NCBI RefSeq assembly: GCF_012163145.1
Contig: NZ_JAAVTX010000001.1
Span: forward strand, 434,001-498,000
Source of the DNA: Falsiroseomonas frigidaquae
GTDB taxonomy: Bacteria > Pseudomonadota > Alphaproteobacteria > Acetobacterales > Acetobacteraceae
DNA: 64,000 nt
Reading direction: 5' to 3'
Under the pieces are notes generated by a model that was not told where the DNA came from, ran no database searches, and saw nothing but the letters and a program-made list of their open reading frames with translations. Both the position numbers and the translations under genes were made by a program. Positions 4,419 to 14,208 of this stretch are shown here, one piece after another (position 1 is the first letter of the stretch; each line of letters starts with the position of its first letter).

Positions 4419-4485
4419 TGCGATCTTCCGATTCCCGGTCCGCGCGCGCACCGGGAATCGATCCAGTAGCAGGACAGTGCCGGCG

Positions 4486-5049
4486 ATGACCGACGTCCTG
4501 CTCCACGGCGAAAGCCTGCGCGCCCTGAAAACCGCCTTCCGGCGCCTGGTCGCCGATGTCGGCGGTCTGGCAGCAGCCGAGGCTTGCGTGCGCGTCTCGG
4601 ACTCGCAGCTGTCGCGCTACTACGACCAGGCAGACCTCGCGACCTTCCCGCCCGCGGATGTCATCGCGCAGCTCGAAGCTATCGCCGGCGAGCCCGTAGT
4701 GACCGCTGAGCTGGCGCGGCTTCGCGGCTATCGGCTCGCGCGCCTTGGCCAGGTCGACAGCTCCATGCTGACCGCCGCTGTTGCCGAGTTCGCCCGTCAT
4801 GCCGGCGGTGTCCCTGCGACACTTTGCGAGAGCCTGGCCGATGGGAAGCTCTCCCGCGCCGAGGCGGACAGCATCGGTCGGCTGGCGGCCCATCAGGCCC
4901 GGCAGCTGGAAGCCATCGCCGCCAAGGCGGCCGCCATGTTCACCAGCTCGCTCGCCGCCCCCGCGGTCGAGAGCGAGGGGGCGCCTGCCGCGCGCGGACC
5001 GCATGCCGGTCGCGCCGGTAGGCGCCAGCCTCGGGCGCGCCGGACATGA
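4486..5049 (+). CDS. phage regulatory protein, CII-like
   Basis: The 187-residue protein resembles CII/CP76-type phage regulators: an N-terminal helix-turn-helix stretch (ALKTAFRRLVADVGGLAAAE, then ACVRVSDSQLSRYYDQADLA), a middle domain FPPADVIAQLEAIAGEPVVT and a long helical C-terminus. I prefer ATG 4486, with AGGA 11 bases upstream; GTG 4477 is an alternative. Its stop overlaps the next start in ATGA. It could be a transcription activator or a replication/copy-control factor. Confidence 0.65.
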   Translation: MTDVLLHGESLRALKTAFRRLVADVGGLAAAEACVRVSDSQLSRYYDQADLATFPPADVIAQLEAIAGEPVVTAELARLRGYRLARLGQVDSSMLTAAVAEFARHAGGVPATLCESLADGKLSRAEADSIGRLAAHQARQLEAIAAKAAAMFTSSLAAPAVESEGAPAARGPHAGRAGRRQPRARRT

Positions 5050-5387
5050 CGCGGCGTCGAGGCACGCCTGCTCGGCGCGGCCACGGCCGCCTGGACTTCG
5101 CGGCGATAAACCGCGCCGCCCTGCCGCACCTCGGCACGCTCTGCATCCGGTGGCTGCCGGGAGGCAAGCAGCAGGGCGACGAGTGGCGATGCGGTGACCT
5201 GCGGGGCACGCCGGGGCGGTCCTGCAGCGTGAACCTTGCCTCCGGCAAATGGGCCGATTTCGCGGCCGGCATCTCCGGCGGCGACGTCATCAGCCTCGCC
5301 GCGGCCATCCACAACCTCAGCCAGGCGGAGGCCGCGCGCAGCCTCGCCGAGATGCTCGGACTAGATCTAGGGGAACACCATGTCTGA
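5046..5387 (+). CDS. CHC2-like zinc-finger primase-associated protein
   Basis: The 113-residue protein looks like a free-standing N-terminal domain of phage or plasmid primase-helicases. It has LGTLCIRWLPGGKQQGDEWR followed by GDLRGTPGRSCSVNLASGKWADFAAG and GGDVISLAAAIHNLSQAEAA, the pattern of DnaG-like zinc-binding domains where a degraded Cys pair precedes the W-x-DF motif. It overlaps the next gene by 8 bases. I infer that it helps the following Toprim/helicase protein to recognise template DNA. Confidence 0.7.
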   Translation: MTRRRGTPARRGHGRLDFAAINRAALPHLGTLCIRWLPGGKQQGDEWRCGDLRGTPGRSCSVNLASGKWADFAAGISGGDVISLAAAIHNLSQAEAARSLAEMLGLDLGEHHV

Positions 5388-7959
5388 ACACACGGGATCG
5401 CCGAAGGCGGGCGCAACAGACCCGTTCGCGCCGCTGAAGGCGAATGGCGTGGCGCATTATCCGAAGCCGCGCCAGGACGCCAAGGAGACATGGGAGCCAA
5501 CGCTGACGCCGCTGCCGGTCGAAGCACCTCAGCCGGCGGACCTTTTTCATCCGGGGTTCGGCAAGGCCGTCGCATGCTGGCCGTACCGCGATGCCGAGGG
5601 TGGGCTGCTGTTCGTCGTCGCCCGGTTCGAGCGCCGCGAGGGCGACAAGCTGAAGAAGGATGTCACCCCTTTCTGCCACGGCCGTCGCGTCTGGATCGAC
5701 AGCAAGGGTGCGCAGCAGGACCGCACCGGCTGGCATATGAAGGCACCGCCAGCGCCGCGCCCCCTCTACGGCCTGCAGCACCTGGCGGCGCGGCCGAAGG
5801 CGCCGGTGCTGCTGGTTGAGGGCGAGAAGGCCGCGGACGCTGCTGCGAAGCTGTTCCCCGAGCACGTGGTGATTGCGAGCCAGGGCGGTAGCAACGCCGC
5901 GTCCCGGGCGGATTGGTCGCCCCTGACCGGTCGCGCCGTGACCTGCTGGCCGGATCGCGATGAGCCTGGTCTCGCCTATGCCAATGCGGCGGCCGAGCAT
6001 GCCCGGCCGCGCGGCGGGGCCCGGGCGAAGAGCTTCCGCATCGTGGAGGTCCCGCGCGACTGGCCTGAGGGCTGGGATCTGGCCGACCCGCTGCCCGTTG
6101 GGGTGTCGCCGGAGCTGCTGGCTGAGCTCCTGTCGGAGGCGCAGGATGCCGATCCGCCTCAGCTCCCGCCCAACTTCATCTTCAAGAGCACCGGGCTCTG
6201 GTACGATCCGGGCGCCAGCCTGGATGAGGAAGTGCCGGCGGAGCGGACGATGATCGCCGCGCCCTTCGAGGTTGTGGGCGAGGCGAATGATGGCGCAGGC
6301 CAGAACTGGGGCCTCGTCATCCGCTGGAAGGACCGCGACGATCGGCACCACCAGTGGAGCGTGCCGAAGCGCCTGATCCATGCCGACGGCAACCGCATCG
6401 CGGAGGAGCTCGAGGAGGCGGGGCTGCACTGCAACCCCAGCAGCAAAGCGCGCAGCCTGTTGAAGCAGTTCATCGGCGGCGTGCGCAGCAAGCGGCGCCG
6501 GATCTGCGTCGACCGTACCGGCTGGCATCTGGCCAGCGGCAAGAGCGTCTTCATCCTGCCGGGCGGAGAGGCCTACGGGCCGGCCGCCAGCTCCGTCATC
6601 CTGCAGACCGACCACGCAGGCACCGATGGGGCCTTCCTCGCCGCCGGCAGCCTGGCCGACTGGCAGGAGCATGTCGGGCGGCTGGCGGCCGGGAACAGCC
6701 GGCTGGTGGTCGCCATCTGCACCGCCCTGGCCACCCCGTTGCTGGACATCGTGGGTGGCGACAGTGGCGGTCTTCACATCGTGGGCGATTCTCAGACCGG
6801 CAAATCGACGACCCTCTATGTCGCGGGCAGCGTCTGGGGAAAGGGCGCCCGCGGCGCGCAGGTGCGGCAGTGGCGCGCCACGGCGAATGGCCTGGAGAGC
6901 GCGGCCTCGGAAACCAGCGACACGGTTCTGATCCTGGATGAGATGGGCCAGGCCAGCAGCAACGATGTGGCCGACACCATCTACATGCTGGCCAATGGCA
7001 GCGGGAAGCTGCGGGCCGGCAGGGAGGGCGGCGCCCGGAAGTCACGCACCTGGCGCACCATGTTCCTGTCCACCGGCGAGGTGACGCTGGGCGCCAAGAT
7101 GGCAGAGGCCGGGCGCAAGCTGATGGCGGGCCTCGAGGTGCGGCTGGTGAACCTGCCGGCGGACGCTGGCGCCGGCATGGGTGTCTTCCAGCAGCTCCAC
7201 AACCACAGCAAGCCGGGGGATTTGGCGAAGGCACTGCAGGCCGCGGCCAAGACCCATTACGGCACGGCGGGGCGCAGCTTTCTGACGCACCTGGTCCGGG
7301 CCAGGGTGACCGATGCGCGGGGGCTGGAGGCCCGGGTGAAGACCGCTCAGGCGGGCTTTGCGAGAAAGCATGTGCCGGAGGATGCGGCCGGCCAGGTGCG
7401 TAGCGTGGCTGATCGCTTCGCGCTGATCGGGGCAGCTGGGGAGCTGGGGATCGAATGGGGTGTACTTCCCTGGTCGAAGGGAGAGGCGATGGCCGCCGCC
7501 GGCGCCTGCTTCCGAACCTGGCTGGGCGAGCGCGGCGGTGCCGGCGCAACCGAAGACCAGCAGGCCATCGCCCAGGTGCAGGCCTTCCTCGAGGCTCATG
7601 GCGAAAGCCGCTTCACGCCGCTGGTTCGCCGCGCCGAGAATGGGGACGTGACCCCTCCTAACCCGGAACAGCACCGCACACAGAACCGTGCCGGCTGGCG
7701 TCGCCGGCCAAATGGCAGCGCCGACGAATGGGAGTATCTGATCCTGCCCCAGGCGTGGACGCAGGAGGTCTGCAAGGGCATGGACCCGAAGAGGGTAGTC
7801 GCCGTGTTGCGCGCGGCAGGCCTTCTCCTCGGCGCCAGCAGCCGGGCTGCCGCAGACCTGGTGAAGATCCCCGGCGAAGGGCCGATCCGGTGCTACCGAG
7901 TCAGTGGCGCAATTTTGGGCATCCGCGAGGAGCCTGGCGAGGACGAGATCGAGTCCTGA
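5380..7959 (+). CDS. Toprim/DUF927 primase-helicase (phage replication protein)
   Basis: This is the 859-residue replication engine. Residues 140-200 form a Toprim-like fold with the Glu motif VLLVEGEKAADAA (E148) and the Asp motif CWPDRDEPG (D192, D194). The central and C-terminal part is a DUF927/superfamily-3-type ATPase: Walker A GDSQTGKST at about 469-477, Walker B VLILDEMGQA at about 515-524, and a downstream sensor-like WRTMFLSTGEVTLGAKM. The start ATG 5380 has AGGGGA 6 bases upstream and overlaps the preceding gene by 8 bases. Such proteins prime and unwind phage or mobile-element DNA. The GTTACC/GGTAAC palindrome begins about 20 bases after its stop, which suggests that it or a partner acts there. 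Confidence 0.9.
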   Translation: MSEHTGSPKAGATDPFAPLKANGVAHYPKPRQDAKETWEPTLTPLPVEAPQPADLFHPGFGKAVACWPYRDAEGGLLFVVARFERREGDKLKKDVTPFCHGRRVWIDSKGAQQDRTGWHMKAPPAPRPLYGLQHLAARPKAPVLLVEGEKAADAAAKLFPEHVVIASQGGSNAASRADWSPLTGRAVTCWPDRDEPGLAYANAAAEHARPRGGARAKSFRIVEVPRDWPEGWDLADPLPVGVSPELLAELLSEAQDADPPQLPPNFIFKSTGLWYDPGASLDEEVPAERTMIAAPFEVVGEANDGAGQNWGLVIRWKDRDDRHHQWSVPKRLIHADGNRIAEELEEAGLHCNPSSKARSLLKQFIGGVRSKRRRICVDRTGWHLASGKSVFILPGGEAYGPAASSVILQTDHAGTDGAFLAAGSLADWQEHVGRLAAGNSRLVVAICTALATPLLDIVGGDSGGLHIVGDSQTGKSTTLYVAGSVWGKGARGAQVRQWRATANGLESAASETSDTVLILDEMGQASSNDVADTIYMLANGSGKLRAGREGGARKSRTWRTMFLSTGEVTLGAKMAEAGRKLMAGLEVRLVNLPADAGAGMGVFQQLHNHSKPGDLAKALQAAAKTHYGTAGRSFLTHLVRARVTDARGLEARVKTAQAGFARKHVPEDAAGQVRSVADRFALIGAAGELGIEWGVLPWSKGEAMAAAGACFRTWLGERGGAGATEDQQAIAQVQAFLEAHGESRFTPLVRRAENGDVTPPNPEQHRTQNRAGWRRRPNGSADEWEYLILPQAWTQEVCKGMDPKRVVAVLRAAGLLLGASSRAAADLVKIPGEGPIRCYRVSGAILGIREEPGEDEIES

Positions 7960-7977
7960 AGAGCAGGCGAAAGTGCG

Positions 7978-8176
7978 GTGTTACCTGTGTTACCGCGTTA
8001 CCTTGCTGAAAAGGCTTGCGATTTCGGTAACACCGGGTTCGACGTCGGTGTTACCGGTGTTACCTCCCTCGTGACCTGGCGCCGAAAAGGTAACACCGGT
8101 AACACCTGCGTTGGCCGCGTGTGTTACCAAATACATGTGAAAAATCAGCGCGGTAACGCGGTAACACCGGTAACAC
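7978..8176. repeat. nested palindromic array of 12 GTTACC/GGTAAC motifs, candidate replication origin
   Basis: GTTACC stands at 7980, 7989, 7997, 8050, 8059 and 8123; its complement GGTAAC stands at 8026, 8089, 8098, 8152, 8160 and 8169. Most copies extend to the 9-mer GGTGTTACC/GGTAACACC. The arrangement is symmetric about 8077: arm 7978-8002 is the reverse complement of 8152-8176 with one mismatch in 25, 8026-8033 of 8121-8128, and 8047-8064 of 8089-8106 without mismatch over 18 bases. Gaps are matched on both sides (23 and 12-14 bases). Small open frames crossing it on both strands show no protein-like features beyond the repeat. Its place right behind the helicase gene fits an iteron-type origin or a multi-site regulator array. 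Confidence 0.75.
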
Positions 8177-8230
8177 GTCGTTTTTCGCTATAGCGGGCGG
8201 ATGCGGCCCGAAGGCCAATCGCTCTGCACA

Positions 8231-8269
8231 ATAAATAGGCTTCACGGCTCTGCGAACCGTGATATTTAT
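8231..8269. other. AT-flanked hairpin beside the motif array
   Basis: ATAAATA at 8231-8237 and TATTTAT at 8263-8269 are inverted repeats enclosing a second stem, TCACGG 8242-8247 with CCGTGA 8257-8262. In this GC-rich genome such an A/T pair is rare. It lies about 55 bases after the array, so it could be the unwinding element of the putative origin, or simply a transcript hairpin. Confidence 0.4.
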
Positions 8270-8351
8270 GCTGTGGCGATGGGCGGGGGCCTGCCGCTGG
8301 GAGCTCGATTGCAGCACGAGTCCGATCTCAGCGTGCGCGTTAGCGCTGCTG

Positions 8352-8367
8352 GATCACATGGCAGGTT
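8352..8367 (+). promoter_or_regulatory. 16-bp element GATCACATGGCAGGTT, copy 1
   Basis: GATCACATGGCAGGTT occurs here and again at 11901-11916, each time in a leader region upstream of a rightward phage unit (156 bases before the gene at 8508; 196 bases before the recombinase). The similarity continues loosely (GCGGTAGC versus GGCGTAGC). Each copy is followed by a GC hairpin (here 8402-8430). A shared promoter, activator or antitermination site is the natural reading. Confidence 0.45.
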
Positions 8368-8401
8368 TTGCGGTAGCTTCCTCAATATCCTGGGGAAAGA
8401 C

Positions 8402-8434
8402 GCGCCCGAGCCCGTAAGGGCCGCGGGCGCTTTG
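8402..8434 (+). terminator. possible intrinsic terminator/attenuator
   Basis: GCGCCCG (8402-8408) pairs with CGGGCGC (8424-8430) and is followed by TTTG. The T-run is short, so this is a weak terminator at best; its place between the 16-bp element and the gene at 8508 suggests an attenuator. Confidence 0.35.
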
Positions 8435-8507
8435 CCGTTCTGGCCTTCCCCGCCGCGTTTCGGCGCCCCCGGCAGCGCCCCGCCCATCATCACAAGGTCC
8501 AGGACCA

Positions 8508-9092
8508 ATGAAGCTGAGTCGCATCTCGGCGGGCACAGCCATGCCCGCGCCAATCTATGACGCCGAGGTGGTGCAGCTGCGGCTCGAGGATGCCGGCGCC
8601 ACACTTCTGGCCCTCCCCTCCCGCGGATGCCTTCCGGCTGGCTATCGCAGCAACTGGCCCCGCGTCGTCACCGATGCCGCGGAGGCCCATGGCTATGGCG
8701 AGGCCGGTATCCGCCCGCCGGTACCCACCGCGCGCCGCGTGACCCAGATGGACGAGGCTTTCGGCTGGCTGAAGCTGCTGGAGCCGGACCGGATCAACCA
8801 TCGACGCATCCTGCTGCTGCGCGCCCTGACCAGCCCCATCACTGGCCGGCACCGTCACACCTGGCGGGCGATCGGGACGATGTTCGGCTGGGACTACCGG
8901 GCGGTGCAGCGCTGGCACGCCGAGGGCATCAGCTGGATCGTCATGGCCCTCTACGCCCAGCAGTGCGGCGGCGCTGAATGGGCGCTGACCTGGCGGGCCG
9001 AGCGGGACGGGCCGGACAGCCTGGCCCGGCCGCGGGACGCCGAGCAGAGCGACGAGCTGGGCAAGGGGATGCGGACCACCAGGTGGGGGTAG
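8508..9092 (+). CDS. DUF6362-like phage protein
   Basis: The 194-residue protein resembles the DUF6362 phage proteins found before packaging genes in alphaproteobacterial prophages. It has a conserved middle, ARRVTQMDEAFGWLKLLEPD, RRILLLRALTSPITGRHRHT, and a helix-turn-helix-like WRAIGTMFGWDYRAVQRWHA. This suggests DNA binding, perhaps as a late regulator or terminase-associated protein. The start at 8508 is preceded by AGGA; an internal ATG at 8541 is an alternative. The C-terminal 45 residues are polar and variable. After its stop the phage gene order is broken by the oppositely oriented cargo pair. Confidence 0.7.
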   Translation: MKLSRISAGTAMPAPIYDAEVVQLRLEDAGATLLALPSRGCLPAGYRSNWPRVVTDAAEAHGYGEAGIRPPVPTARRVTQMDEAFGWLKLLEPDRINHRRILLLRALTSPITGRHRHTWRAIGTMFGWDYRAVQRWHAEGISWIVMALYAQQCGGAEWALTWRAERDGPDSLARPRDAEQSDELGKGMRTTRWG

Positions 9093-9206: not shown

Positions 9207-10667
9207 TTATGGGGACCTTGAGGCATCATCCTCACTCGCTTGCTCTTCCGACGCCGGCGATGAAGATGGTGCGATGGAGGGCGAGGTTCCGGATAAAGAT
9301 TGCTTATTCATATGAGCGCCAGTCTCTGAAGCGATCGTCGGCGGTCCAGCCGACGAGTTAATGGGCTCGGCAGCGATAAAGTAAACGGCAAGAAGTAAGG
9401 CCAAAGCCATGGTGATCCCGAATGCTGCCGTAATAGCAAATGCGCGCTCCGCTCGCTTGACTGGCCTAGCCACCATCCTTTGGTACTCTTCGTCTCCTAA
9501 GAACCTGTAAAGTCGATCCCGCCATTCGGCCCTAAGCCCCCGCTGGATAGAGATGAAATGCCATCCACTCGCAATGACGGAGAGTACATAGATCGCAAGA
9601 ACGAAGCCAATCAGGACTGCCGCGGGGCCCACTAGTGTCACATTTGTCGGCAGCGTGACCCGTGCAATAATTAGACCTAAGTTGCCGAAGACAGCGGCCA
9701 CAACTGCGGCGCCGAGCGATCGCGTCGTCTCAGAGAGCTTCGCAGCGTCGTCGGAAACTGCCTTCCTCAGATCGCTTAACGCTCGGAGTGTTTCTTTGCT
9801 TTGCTGATTAATGCCGAAACTGTACGCAATACGTGCACCTTCCAGCGCAGAACTGAGCATTCCCGCGAGTTCGGGTACGCCGCCATCGCGCGAAGAGGTT
9901 CTCGCCACTTCGGCGGCCAGAAGTCCGTGCCTGTTTTCGAACTCGCGCTCGTTCTCGTACACCCAGTAAGCTGCAGCCTGGAGCGCCGCAAAAGCCTCCG
10001 AGGCCACCGGCGAATGTGCTGGTCTGAACCGCGTGGGTGGCGGACCTCGGAAGAGGAGCTTTCCGTCAGGCTCGACCTCCTGAGCGAGCGCAGCCGCGAG
10101 CCTGGTCGTCGCCTGTTCGCGCCATGGCGCCAATGCCTGCGCAGAAACGTCTACACCCGCCGACCGTAGCAGCCACCGCCCGATGTCAGCCCCTGGCCCC
10201 CCGGGTCCCAAGATGCGCACGACCCGCGCCGGGTTTGGAGGATCTAGCTCACGCGAAAAGTCGAGATCGGTACTTCCCCAAGGAGCATAGCGGACCGTAA
10301 CGGTGTCAACCTGCTGATCCAATCCCTGCACCCAAACCACTCTGGAGATGGAATCCCTGCGCAACAGGGATTCCAAGCCTGATCTTGTGATGACGGCATC
10401 GACGCCCGGCGGTACATCTGGACTGCGCGCCGTGATCCGAACCCCGGATAGATTCTCGAAAAGGAGTTCGCGCGGGAATAATCCGCCCTCGTCTTCGAGT
10501 ACGATATTCGACCAGCCCGCGCCTTCTAATTCCTCGAAGACGCTATAGGCTTCATCGCCGTTGAGCTGGTTAACGGCCAGCACGTCGCCGTTCTCCGTAA
10601 CCGTTACCCGACCTTCGGCAATCAAGCCGTTAAGCCTGTCGGCCAATTCTTTCTGGAAGCGTGCCAT
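9207..10667 (-). CDS. multi-domain membrane protein of unknown function (cargo pair, gene 2)
   Basis: I do not recognise a family for this 486-residue protein. Residues 1-300 are soluble, with an alpha/beta N-terminus (ENGDVLAVNQLNGDEAYSVF, LLRRDSISRVVWVQGLDQQV). Three hydrophobic segments follow: about 318-338 (LGAAVVAAVFGNLGLIIARV), 346-370 (VGPAAVLIGFVLAIYVLSVI) and 410-433 (ITAAFGITMALALLLAVYF). The C-terminal 50 residues are Ser/Pro/Glu-rich and disordered. The layout, a cytosolic sensor domain followed by a small bundle of membrane helices, is that of many abortive-infection effectors (inference). I chose ATG 10667; a TTG two codons earlier is possible. It overlaps the upstream gene by 38 bases, and codon use is less GC-biased than in the phage backbone. 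Confidence 0.75.
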   Translation of the reverse strand: MARFQKELADRLNGLIAEGRVTVTENGDVLAVNQLNGDEAYSVFEELEGAGWSNIVLEDEGGLFPRELLFENLSGVRITARSPDVPPGVDAVITRSGLESLLRRDSISRVVWVQGLDQQVDTVTVRYAPWGSTDLDFSRELDPPNPARVVRILGPGGPGADIGRWLLRSAGVDVSAQALAPWREQATTRLAAALAQEVEPDGKLLFRGPPPTRFRPAHSPVASEAFAALQAAAYWVYENEREFENRHGLLAAEVARTSSRDGGVPELAGMLSSALEGARIAYSFGINQQSKETLRALSDLRKAVSDDAAKLSETTRSLGAAVVAAVFGNLGLIIARVTLPTNVTLVGPAAVLIGFVLAIYVLSVIASGWHFISIQRGLRAEWRDRLYRFLGDEEYQRMVARPVKRAERAFAITAAFGITMALALLLAVYFIAAEPINSSAGPPTIASETGAHMNKQSLSGTSPSIAPSSSPASEEQASEDDASRSP

Positions 10668-11682
10668 CTTCAATCAACCTAGAGGTGCGAATAGTAAAAA
10701 CGATCCCGGCTTCCGTCTGCTCTCGATGCACGGAATTGCCGAGTTCCTCTGCCGGAAACTCTAAACTAACCTGTTCAGCGGTGCGGACCAGACGACGAGG
10801 CTGTACCTGCAGGCTCCGCGCGTCGGGCTTGAACTCGATGTCGTGCAATCGCTGACGCCGAAGCTCGCTGCGGGTTGCCTTCTCGATCTCCTGTCGCGTA
10901 CCTTCGTCCTCTGGCCGATCGGCAGCATGCATGATGGCATCGACAACGTCATCGTTCGTCACCGTGTCCCGACCGCGCAGGGCAGTCTTGGCGCGGGCTA
11001 CCGCGCCACCGACGTCGCCACGAGGTAGATGATCCCTAACCTTCTGCACGGCCCGGCGTAGCGCCTCGCTCAGCCCGCTGGAGAGCTCGCCGTTCGAACG
11101 CGACCTGGCGACCCCCAGATACCGTTCAAAATAATCAGTCAAATCGGGCGCCTGCTTCATGCGGTCCGACGCCGACACAGCTTGATCCGCTACATTATCG
11201 GTGACGCGCACTAAACAAAATTTCTGAATAGCGCGCCGATCTTTGACAAACGCCTGAACGATGGCGCGAAGCACATTTCTGCCCTCAGCGTGCGCTAGCT
11301 CCACCGCTTCGCGATAATCGTATTTGATTAGGGCATAAAAAACGTCGGCGCCGTCGCACCTCAGTTCGAAGACAAAGAACGCCCCACCCACGCTTTGAGG
11401 GACATGCATTTCCCAAAAACGATGTGCTAATCTCTGGCCTCCCGCTTCAAAGCTTGTGTTGCCCAGAACTATGTCCTCTAGGATGCTCTTAACGGCTGAG
11501 CCCTGAATGAAATTGTGTACCCCGTCGCGGGCTTCATCCATTATGCGTGCACGGAAAAATCCTTCCTGCTGGACTTCAATTTCTTGCTGTTCAACGAATC
11601 CATCCTCTTCTCGCCCAACGACGTGAATTATCATGCGTACTACTCGCAGAGTGCTGACTTCTTCGTCTTTAAAAAACGCCAT
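10630..11682 (-). CDS. 37-kDa nucleoid-associated protein (NdpA/YejK-like), cargo pair gene 1
   Basis: The 350-residue product has the length and pattern of the NA37/YejK family: an N-terminal strand-rich part (LRVVRMIIHVVGREEDGF), then FFRARIMDEARDGVHNFIQG, FELRCDGADVFYALIKYDYRE with the typical FALIKYD box, and a helical C-terminus (DYFERYLGVARSRSNGELSS, RRAVQKVRDHLPRGDVG). YejK binds the nucleoid; mobile-element homologues are often found in defence-type clusters. The ribosome-binding site GGAGGGG lies about 10 bases before ATG 11682. It is transcribed against the phage late genes, overlaps the membrane-protein gene by 38 bases and uses A/T-richer codons, all signs of a separately acquired two-gene module. 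Confidence 0.8.
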   Translation of the reverse strand: MAFFKDEEVSTLRVVRMIIHVVGREEDGFVEQQEIEVQQEGFFRARIMDEARDGVHNFIQGSAVKSILEDIVLGNTSFEAGGQRLAHRFWEMHVPQSVGGAFFVFELRCDGADVFYALIKYDYREAVELAHAEGRNVLRAIVQAFVKDRRAIQKFCLVRVTDNVADQAVSASDRMKQAPDLTDYFERYLGVARSRSNGELSSGLSEALRRAVQKVRDHLPRGDVGGAVARAKTALRGRDTVTNDDVVDAIMHAADRPEDEGTRQEIEKATRSELRRQRLHDIEFKPDARSLQVQPRRLVRTAEQVSLEFPAEELGNSVHREQTEAGIVFTIRTSRLIEDGTLPERIGRQA

Positions 11683-11900
11683 ACCGTGCCGCCCCTCCGT
11701 GATAAGGTCGCATTCGCCCTGGTCGCGATGTCAGAGACTGGTTCGTCACATCGGTGCCATAGTCCCTCGCGCCGATGGCCTCCGGATCCGGACCTCGAGC
11801 CCTGTCGTTCTCGAGATGGATCAAAGCAGGGACATAGCAGGCTAGTAAATCCCAATCGTTCCCATTCGCTGCGCGCGCCGGCGGCGGCGGAAATTCTCTT

Positions 11901-11916
11901 GATCACATGGCAGGTT
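11901..11916 (+). promoter_or_regulatory. 16-bp element GATCACATGGCAGGTT, copy 2
   Basis: This is an exact copy of the element at 8352-8367. It precedes the recombinase by 196 bases and a terminator-like hairpin by 75 bases. Because the two copies flank the DUF6362-like gene plus the cargo pair, the repeat may mark a duplicated leader sequence or the two ends of an insertion. Confidence 0.45.
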
Positions 11917-11990
11917 CTGGCGTAGCCGTGGCGGCACGATGCCAGGAGAGGGAGCGGCGCTCCCCTAGGCCCCCTCCTCACAGCGCGAGA

Positions 11991-12028
11991 AGCCCTCGGA
12001 CCCACCGGTTCGAGGGCTTTTCCTTTTC
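11991..12028 (+). terminator. rho-independent terminator-like hairpin
   Basis: AGCCCTCG (11991-11998) pairs with CGAGGGCT (12011-12018) across a 12-base loop and is followed by TTTTCCTTTT. It is a good intrinsic terminator on the plus strand, placed between the 16-bp element and the recombinase start, as if it had to be read through. Confidence 0.6.
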
Positions 12029-12112
12029 CAGCGCCGGTGATCCGGCCTTTTCAAACCGTCAAACGACCGTATGGGTCTGTAAAGGCCCGCCACCCCGCAC
12101 CCCTGCTGGAAC

Positions 12113-12829
12113 ATGGCCCGCAAGCCCTTCAAGAAGGCCGCTGGCGCCGCAGCGGGCTTGCGGGGGTTCATCGCCTATTACCGCGTCAGCACCGACAAGC
12201 AGGGCGCCTCCGGCCTTGGCCTGGAAGCCCAGCAGGAAGCGGTGGAGCGTCATGTCCGGGCCGCCGGCGGCCGGATACTCGACGTGTTCCGGGAGATCGA
12301 GTCCGGCAAGAAGAACGACCGGCCGCAGATCGCCGCCGCCATCGTCGCCTGCCGCGCGCGCCGCGCCACGCTGATCATCGCCAAGCTCGACCGTCTGGCC
12401 CGCAACGTCGCCTTCGTCAGCAACCTGATGGAGAGCGGCATCGAATTCGTGGCCTGCGACAACCCTCACGCCAACCGGCTGACCATCCACATCCTGGCCG
12501 CCGTCGCCGAGCATGAGCGCGAGATGATCTCCGCCCGAACCCGGGCGGCGCTTCAGGCGGCGAGAGCGCGCGGCGTGCGGCTCGGCAGCCCGCGCCTCGT
12601 CGCCGGCGATGCCGAGCAGGCGCGGCGCGCCAATGCCGTGCGGCAGGATCTTGCGGCCGAGCATGCCGCGCGGGTGCTGCCGATGATTCGAGCCGCGCAA
12701 GCGGCGGGCTGCACCAGCCTGCCGCAGATCGCTGCGGCGCTGATGGCGCGCGGCGTGAAAACCGCTGCGGGCGCCGAGGTCTGGCACCCGACCCAGGTGC
12801 AACGCATTCTCGACAGGAACACCAGCTGA
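12113..12829 (+). CDS. serine recombinase (resolvase/invertase family)
   Basis: The 238-residue protein is a small serine recombinase. The catalytic domain starts at GFIAYYRVSTDKQ with R24 and S26, the nucleophile. It continues with LGLEAQQEAVERHVR, the LIIAKLDRLARNVAF box with active-site arginines and IHILAAVAEHEREMISARTR. The C-terminal HTH is ARVLPMIRAAQAAGCTSLPQ followed by IAAALMARGVKTAAG. The prophage thus has a second recombinase besides the tyrosine integrase. Its partner site is unknown; resolution of replication dimers or DNA inversion are possible roles. It is coupled to the next gene by TGATG. Confidence 0.92.
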   Translation: MARKPFKKAAGAAAGLRGFIAYYRVSTDKQGASGLGLEAQQEAVERHVRAAGGRILDVFREIESGKKNDRPQIAAAIVACRARRATLIIAKLDRLARNVAFVSNLMESGIEFVACDNPHANRLTIHILAAVAEHEREMISARTRAALQAARARGVRLGSPRLVAGDAEQARRANAVRQDLAAEHAARVLPMIRAAQAAGCTSLPQIAAALMARGVKTAAGAEVWHPTQVQRILDRNTS

Positions 12830-13176
12830 TGGCCCGCACCACCAAGCCCGCATCCCGCAGCAAGGTGACCGCGGCCGCGCCGACGGTGACGCGGCCGCAG
12901 ATCCTCGACCGCAAGGTCATCGCCGACGCCGGCACCTATGCGGTGAACAAGGCGGAGATCGATCGGCTCACCGCGGAGAACGAGGCGCTGAAGGTCACGC
13001 TGCTGCAGGCCATGGGCCCGCATGAGAGCGTCATCACCGGCAATCGCGTGCTGACGCGCAGCACCCATGCCGGCACGCCGGCGACCGAGAACGTGGTCAT
13101 CACCAAGGCGATGATCGGCCAAATCATCCCCGGCAAGAAAGGCCGCAAAGGATATACCACGCTGACGGTGCAGTGA
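12829..13176 (+). CDS. hypothetical phage protein
   Basis: The 115-residue basic protein has a short predicted coiled coil (NKAEIDRLTAENEALKVTLL) in the middle and a C-terminal KAMIGQIIPGKKGRKGYTTL that looks like an exposed basic tail. No family is recognised. Its ATG shares a base with the recombinase stop, so the two are co-translated. The phage gene order breaks after its stop, where the ParA gene is inserted in the opposite orientation. Confidence 0.65.
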   Translation: MARTTKPASRSKVTAAAPTVTRPQILDRKVIADAGTYAVNKAEIDRLTAENEALKVTLLQAMGPHESVITGNRVLTRSTHAGTPATENVVITKAMIGQIIPGKKGRKGYTTLTVQ

Positions 13177-13191
13177 AGTTATTGCGAAACG

Positions 13192-14208
13192 TCAAAGTTT
13201 GGCGACTAGCCGCCTGATCGCCCTCAGAGAGTCGAGCCGGTAGTCCTCCTTTACTTGAACACGATGTCCCCCGATGTCCTGCTTTCCAGCCTTCAGCTGC
13301 GAGAACGGGACACCCCGAGCGAAGGCAACTACGCCGGAAGTCTGGAAATCCCTCACTTCAACAGTCCCATCCTTTGTGGAATTGAAGGTAAATAAGTGTG
13401 GGTGAGTCAGCAACAGCGCCCTAATATCGTCGTCTACAGAGTTCAAAACCGCCGCGTAAGCTGAGGCAGACCCCATGTACTGGGTGATCCTGTTCTTCGC
13501 GATCAAATGAACCTTGGGAAGGGTTCGTTTCGCCACCTCGAGCTTTGCGCTGAACGCATAGGTCGTATAGATCGGGTCAGGCAACTTAAGCCCGTAAAGA
13601 AGAGAGAGGGCATTCTGCACTGCCCGGCGGGAAGAGTCGTCAGCCATGACCGGCAGGATCAATCTGTCTGAGGCAGCTAGGGCTATCTGGGTGTAAACTG
13701 AAAAACTCGGATTGCAGTCGAAAAAAATCACATCGTGGCCGACCGCCAATCGCAATAGATCTGATATCCAATCAATTACGGCGATCCAGGTGTTCGTACC
13801 AGGGATCTGGTTATTTGCCAGGGTGTTGATTGCATTAGCTTGCAATTCGAGTAGAGGATCCCCGCAGATCAATTCGATATTGGTAGGGATCGCAGGGTTG
13901 TAGCGGGATGGGCGCGAGACAAAATCCGCCAGCTGAATAGTTGGCGGCATGGTGTAGGGGGAAGGAAGGCGAAGCTGAAAATAGCCGCCGATGCTAGCGC
14001 GCGGCATCGCGCCCTGACGCTCAAGCAGCTTATTGCTGCCGCCGTTCTGAAGTCCGCCTAAAAAGAGCTCCGAGAGGTTTGCTTGTGGACAAACATCCAC
14101 AACCAATATTTTCTTGCTCGGGTTTTCAAGGCTGTACTCGCAGATCGCTTGGAACGCCAAGCTAGTTTTTCCCGTACCGCCCTTGTTGTTCCAGAATGCG
14201 TACTTCAT
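13192..14208 (-). CDS. orphan ParA/MinD-type ATPase
   Basis: The 338-residue protein begins MKYAFWNNKGGTGKTSLAFQ, a deviant Walker A of ParA proteins (KGGTGKT), followed by the A' motif ILVVDVCPQANLSE and the Walker B-like HDVIFFDCNPSFSVY with LILPVMADDSSRRAV. No ParB or centromere-binding partner lies next to it; the neighbours are phage genes on the other strand. AGGAG stands about 8 bases before ATG 14208. Codon use is clearly richer in A/T than in the late genes, so it is recent cargo. ParA homologues move or position DNA or protein cargo; maintenance, regulation or defence are open options. Confidence 0.85.
   Translation of the reverse strand: MKYAFWNNKGGTGKTSLAFQAICEYSLENPSKKILVVDVCPQANLSELFLGGLQNGGSNKLLERQGAMPRASIGGYFQLRLPSPYTMPPTIQLADFVSRPSRYNPAIPTNIELICGDPLLELQANAINTLANNQIPGTNTWIAVIDWISDLLRLAVGHDVIFFDCNPSFSVYTQIALAASDRLILPVMADDSSRRAVQNALSLLYGLKLPDPIYTTYAFSAKLEVAKRTLPKVHLIAKNRITQYMGSASAYAAVLNSVDDDIRALLLTHPHLFTFNSTKDGTVEVRDFQTSGVVAFARGVPFSQLKAGKQDIGGHRVQVKEDYRLDSLRAIRRLVAKL

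Follow-up and report, generated by a model that had tools for sequence, protein, structure and literature searches.

The replication origins closest to the locus described here are those of the self-loading helicases of Staphylococcus aureus pathogenicity islands (SaPIs) and other phage-inducible chromosomal islands (PICIs). In SaPIs the origin immediately follows the rep gene on its downstream side (PMC7581432), and its repeats, in opposite orientations, direct two head-to-head hexamers (PMC9894130). For Gram-negative PICIs an origin is likewise placed downstream of pri, and DUF927 proteins are counted among their primases (PMC10111431). For the satellite EcCICFT073, a plasmid test in E. coli DH5alpha is reported in which no colonies arose with the rep mutant and fewer arose when ori was deleted. 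Here, a stretch of 64,000 nucleotides from Falsiroseomonas frigidaquae (contig NZ_JAAVTX010000001.1, positions 434,001 to 498,000; the window) was analysed, in which a compact array of iterons follows the gene of a prophage primase-helicase with Toprim-like and DUF927 domains. Judged from sequence, the array is, with a probability of about 0.86, the replication origin of a temperate myovirus-type prophage, bound by the helicase encoded upstream and loaded with two opposed rings. The best reading of its kind would be a SaPI/PICI-type origin, here in a complete prophage and without an AT-rich centre. The helicase gene and the parts of the array are as follows.

5380..7959, + strand: Toprim-like + DUF927 primase-helicase, kin of SaPIbov1 Rep and Cch
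7980..8002 (7980-7985, 7989-7994, 7997-8002), + strand: left module, iteron triplet
8003..8025: left long spacer, AT 57%
8026..8031, - strand: left module, single inverted iteron
8050..8064 (8050-8055, 8059-8064), + strand: left module, inner iteron doublet
8065..8088: centre between the modules, AT 38%, not AT-rich
8089..8103 (8089-8094, 8098-8103), - strand: right module, inner iteron doublet
8123..8128, + strand: right module, single inverted iteron
8129..8151: right long spacer, AT 65%, candidate melting stretch
8152..8174 (8152-8157, 8160-8165, 8169-8174), - strand: right module, iteron triplet

The window contains 19 GTTACC/GGTAAC sites, 12 of which, six per strand, fall at 7980-8174; dinucleotide shuffles of the window (n = 100) contain 4.18 on average and nine at most. 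The top 7-mer within 400 bp behind the helicase stop has 10 copies, a number matched by none of 100 shuffles, and GGTGTTACC occurs nine times in the genome (6.08 Mb), seven of them inside the array. The array starts at 7978, 18 bp from the helicase stop codon, which ends at 7959. From left to right, three sites are forward, one reverse and two forward, followed by two reverse, one forward and three reverse. As the original prediction had stated, all 12 are mirror-placed about an axis at 8077 (partner centres sum to 16154 in four pairs and 16153 in two); shuffling of gaps and orientations paired 5.4 sites on average and never did as well in 1000 trials (p~0.001), and shuffling of gaps alone gave p=0.004. 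The three nested arm pairs it had listed are also present, namely outer arms of 25 bp with one mismatch (7978-8002/8152-8176), single-site arms of 8 bp (GGTAACAC/GTGTTACC), and inner arms of 18 bp (8047-8064/8089-8106). Its wider description, a nested palindrome of 199 bp, holds for the placement of the sites but not for the sequence over its full length: 36 of 36 motif bases are mirrored, compared with 15 of the 39 bases lying more than 3 bp from any motif (about 10 expected by chance). The symmetry is thus mainly one of site placement and not a full-length sequence palindrome. An inverted duplication was rejected as its source, since bases beyond the motif flanks mirror little more often than chance. 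The AT content of the centre is 38%, that of the whole array 46% and that of the window 31%. Two open reading frames of the window, 7978-8193 (+) and 8060-8317 (-), read the iterons as low-complexity protein (VTGVT, NTGNT, VLPVLP), and where short reading frames of this kind are annotated behind DUF927 genes, they are probably spurious and mark origins.

Relatives of the helicase were taken from IMG/VR (the best 80 of 126), from GTDB contigs (80 of at least 370 confirmed), and from 200 family genomes (47 matched at E<=1e-30). There were 191 helicase-matched loci; L077, which has no stop codon, and L008, which is the window again, were excluded, and the remaining 189 proteins with downstream DNA formed 130 clusters at 85% identity. 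In 75 of the 130 clusters, the 400 bp that follow the helicase contained a repeated 7-mer (p<=0.01 against shuffles), with control values of 4/88 far downstream, 3/130 inside the gene, and 2/123 upstream. Clusters were also scanned with a template of six sites of any word, whose cut-offs were set after the controls had been seen. Scores of at least 96 were obtained downstream in 76 of 130, far downstream in 2 of 88, and inside the gene in 0 of 130; at 104 or more, the numbers were 67, 1, and 0, respectively. A combined criterion gives an adjacent array in 78/130 clusters. The search behind the DUF927 genes of relatives that had been proposed returned arrays (76/130 by the template), including those of the three relatives from the first viral scan, each with another word: GTGACGCG in L005 (80% identity), GTTACACC in L006, and GGTAACCCA in L007. 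The word varies by lineage, and spacing and orientation are kept. An E. coli locus, L216, is a P4-like satellite beside tRNA-Arg whose Toprim-DUF927 helicase is followed by an array of iterons; it was matched in 332 of 5426 E. coli genomes, with 295 records at 99% or more.

The plan common to these modules begins with a doublet whose sites are 9 bp apart; after about 22 bp comes a single inverted site, and beyond a long spacer a triplet (9 + 9 bp). Among the 67 loci scoring at least 104, the doublet-to-triplet distance, which is independent of word framing, is 53-57 bp in 35, 75-78 bp in 23, and elsewhere in nine. The phase resultant of this distance is 0.70 for a period of 10.5 bp and 0.74 for 11 bp, with the 99.9% point of the null at 0.37. 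Two separate modules occur in 16 of these loci, with the doublets inside in 13 (the type of the window) and the triplets inside in three, and both halves share the spacer class in 14 of the 16. In a single-site test of arrays with at least eight sites (n=39), 21 were mirror-symmetric at p<=0.01 and 18 were not. The family logo, in module orientation, is TGTnnCnnn (G2 0.90, T3 0.73, C6 0.89); positions 4, 5, 7, and 8 are variable across loci and near-fixed inside each locus, and the 9-bp iteron of the window reads GGTAACACC in this form. Across 83 modules, AT content rises relative to the gene by 0.15 in the long spacer and by 0.12 just past the triplet; it rises in the short gap (0.10) and before the doublet (0.05) as well, so that the contrast is moderate. 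An AT-rich centre as melting site was discarded, the centre having a lower AT content than the array as a whole in 12 of the 16 two-module loci, window included. Six loci (L049, L052, L123, L026, L031, and L130) have single six-site modules of 82-105 bp with near-alike spacing, possibly one-ring, one-direction origins. In four others (L060, L137, L132, and L107), reversed mirror dimers with the triplets inward are seen (inner spacing 82-136 bp in the three measured), nearer to the SaPI layout than to that of the window.

The iteron word covaries with the helicase. Words were used from 63 loci, i.e., the 67 minus L020, L036, L084, and L108, whose frame is doubtful; 544 columns were scanned against four iteron positions, and residue 827 was chosen after the scan. 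C at base 5 pairs with Lys or Arg at residue 827 in 21/27 loci, and otherwise in 1/36 (L151, with base 5 unread, was counted as not C). In a held-out set the corresponding values are 18/20 and 2/10, and the association also holds on the tree. The covarying residues, 823-827, fall in a C-terminal winged helix, which our own reading of the model would place at about residues 772-842; position 7 against residue 823 is no more than suggestive on the tree (p 0.06). Because the word covaries with the helicase's own C-terminal residues, it is very probably the helicase itself that reads and binds the array.

A comparable relation was seen in the staphylococcal set. PT1028 Rep (22% identity over the matched stretch) has 58 relatives in IMG/VR, forming 17 clusters at 95% identity. 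With the residue extracted by a regular expression, the 45 loci whose words were framed carry AGTTCCC with K or R (15), AGTACCC with Q (20), or AGTCCCC with E (10), without exception. Twelve further loci, all Q, were misread by the fixed frame, and their top 7-mer (GTACACA or AGTACAC) has A at base 4 too; in one of the 58 the residue was unread. The residue varies inside clusters, with the word matching each time (L218: seven K, one Q, one E; L256: one K, one Q), and gene end and origin may possibly have been exchanged together. When the C-termini of the SaPI and proteobacterial proteins were aligned by machine, the result was poor near the helices and its placement of residue 827 unreliable, so the equivalence is based on our own reading of the stretch R-[LI]-Q-x-[KRQE]-[VI] and a weak 8tch profile alignment. 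The 8tch segment is identical to that of L223, whose word is AGTACCC.

As in the rep-ori arrangement of SaPIs and PICIs, the window has a DUF927-type helicase, an array immediately 3' of its gene in a predicted origin role, opposed iteron sets, and a helicase C-terminus that covaries with the iteron. The fold of the window helicase matches SaPIbov1 Rep and SCCmec Cch, which places it among the AAA+ helicases of the DUF927/SaPI-Rep/Cch type; the comparison with SCCmec Cch covered the helicase, and a search of the PDB with the final 119 residues as a single sequence gave no match. In the SaPI loci examined, the sides with the short gap point outward and enclose an AT-rich centre (exact sites about 96 bp apart in PT1028; both halves in L261), whereas in the window they face inward around a centre of 24 bp that is not AT-rich. 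In addition, the window helicase is fused to a Toprim-like domain and belongs to a complete prophage, not a satellite. EcCICFT073 resembles the window in having two iteron sets right behind the replication gene, with the order group, short gap, inverted site, long gap, group (by eye), and differs in its D5_N-type helicase, its iteron (TGTCTACC), and its satellite nature. Its origin (L217:2997-3284, E. coli CFT073) shows by eye two sites, 47 bp, an inverted site, 21 bp, and three sites, then two, 23 bp, an inverted site, 46 bp, and two, a grammar much like that of DUF927 origins despite the other helicase family.

Iteron plasmid origins consist of short repeats, all direct, that are bound by the element's own Rep, which recruits the host helicase. 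The window is similar in its several short repeats and in the predicted binding by its own initiator; it differs in that the halves are opposed, the initiator would be the helicase itself, and the sites do not run in one direction. The symmetric, opposed sets had been contrasted with ordinary iterons, but they are not unprecedented, given the SaPI/PICI origins, nor obligatory, as some relatives have a single module.

The following mechanism is proposed. The C-terminal winged helix of the helicase would read the 9-bp iteron, and six sites in fixed helical phase would form one loading module, probably placing one hexameric ring (one hexamer per module is suggested because there are six sites for six subunits). 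Two mirror-image modules would then place two opposed rings. The rings would melt the DNA, probably at the AT-richer long spacers, and bidirectional replication would start from the array, with the fused Toprim domain priming and the host polymerase elongating. More broadly, we give even odds to the proposal that DUF927 helicases of Proteobacteria and staphylococcal islands share a phased module of six sites, one per subunit, either single (one ring, one-way) or as a mirror dimer (two rings, two-way), with residues 823-827 as a readable key to the iteron, so that origin specificity could be predicted from the protein. What differs here from the described origins is the complete-looking prophage, the compact, fully mirrored 12-site array without an AT-rich centre, the family-wide, helically phased six-site module, and the covariation of iteron and C-terminal residues. 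The module and the covariation were not found in searches of open-licence papers, and earlier papers on SaPI origins and helicases may describe parts of them. A little-studied family of phage and satellite helicases would thereby gain a predicted origin that is recognisable in sequence data and open to testing, with iteron number (6 or 12) tied to ring helicases; the residue-to-base covariation suggests which co-resident elements can use each other's origins, and the question is raised of whether single-module and mirror-dimer origins have one or two start directions.

Several observations weigh against this interpretation. Only one module is seen at 104 or more in 51 of the 67 loci, some with a weaker second half, and the double ring may therefore not be general. 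By the combined criterion, 52 of 130 clusters have no adjacent array; in a scan without a null, 20 of them show at least six copies of one 7-mer in 300 bp somewhere in the retrieved DNA, and the other 32 show none there. Among the 20, five have the copies overlap a longer open frame at its 3' end. Residue 827 tracks base 4 in SaPIs and mostly base 5 in the proteobacterial set, where K goes with CC in 14 loci and TC in five, and Q with AC in two, CT in one, and AG in one; since the two sets differ, bases 4 and 5 are both candidates for the contact. The columns that covary most with iteron positions 4 and 8 are outside the C-terminal domain, and column 717 equals 827 for position 5. When the automatic word reader of the held-out set was compared with the module-based words in the 63 training loci, the two agreed in only 47. 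The AT-rich centre of SaPI/PICI origins is absent from the window, which has AT-richer stretches inside each half. By eye, two other DUF927 loci of the same genome have no array in 330 bp, and GC skew has no origin-like minimum at 8 kb, where the local cumulative curve peaks; GC skew was set aside as uninformative. Apart from these points, four loci (L027, L028, L032, and L197) have, by eye, short GTCTCA repeats in place of an adjacent array, seemingly followed in the first three by a resolvase-like reading frame.

Among the genes preceding the helicase are the following two.

4477..5049, + strand: CII-like transcriptional activator (phrog_101)
5046..5387, + strand: small protein preceding the helicase, with likeness to a primase zinc domain by eye only; Pfam and PHROG searches gave no match

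Repressor-type genes are also found near the array. The possibility, raised originally for a repressor, that a phage repressor or the CII-like activator uses the array as its operator to control transcription downstream of the helicase gene draws on this proximity (the CII-like gene being at 4477-5049) and on the general fit of inverted sites to dimeric regulators. It would not explain why the word covaries with the C-terminal residues of the helicase; the E. coli satellite L216 has an array behind its helicase as well, and no promoter was found in 7850-8550 in a search confined to the sigma-70-like type; we regard it as improbable. Still less credible is the idea that the array forms a long cruciform, or a hairpin in the RNA, by which the transcript is regulated or ended. 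The 25-, 8-, and 18-bp arms are indeed complementary, but the low degree of mirroring in the spacers (15/39 off-motif bases) weakens this view; neither a terminator-like site nor an Rfam match at gathering scores was found, and relatives conserve spacing and orientation rather than sequence, some having a single module with no mirrored counterpart. Cruciform, terminator, and structured RNA were accordingly dropped as candidates.

The strongest competitor, though still unlikely, is a control site, at which the helicase would mainly repress or time its own expression or count copies, with replication starting elsewhere. Iterons can be control sites, and P4 crr is one of this sort; covariation implies recognition, not initiation, and ten held-out relatives have the array kilobases away from the gene. 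On the other side, the site right behind the helicase in SaPI/PICI kin has been described as the origin, plasmid-tested for EcCICFT073, and AT-richer spacers are present. Of the ideas considered, the best supported is the one first proposed, namely that the DUF927 helicase loads an origin for both directions, in view of the arrays behind 76/130 clusters, the covariation, the fold match to SaPIbov1 Rep and Cch, and the position of SaPI origins.

With regard to the host element, the window encodes terminase subunits, portal, head protease, tail sheath, baseplate hub and wedge, tail fibre, and spanin. The element is a complete-looking myovirus-type prophage and thus not a PICI, i.e., a satellite without a full virion set. 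The stretch 9207-14208 has a GC content of 59-63% in 2-kb windows, compared with about 69%, and contains a serine resolvase gene (12113-12829) and, by eye, a ParA-like gene (13192-14208); it is possibly a later insert in the early region.
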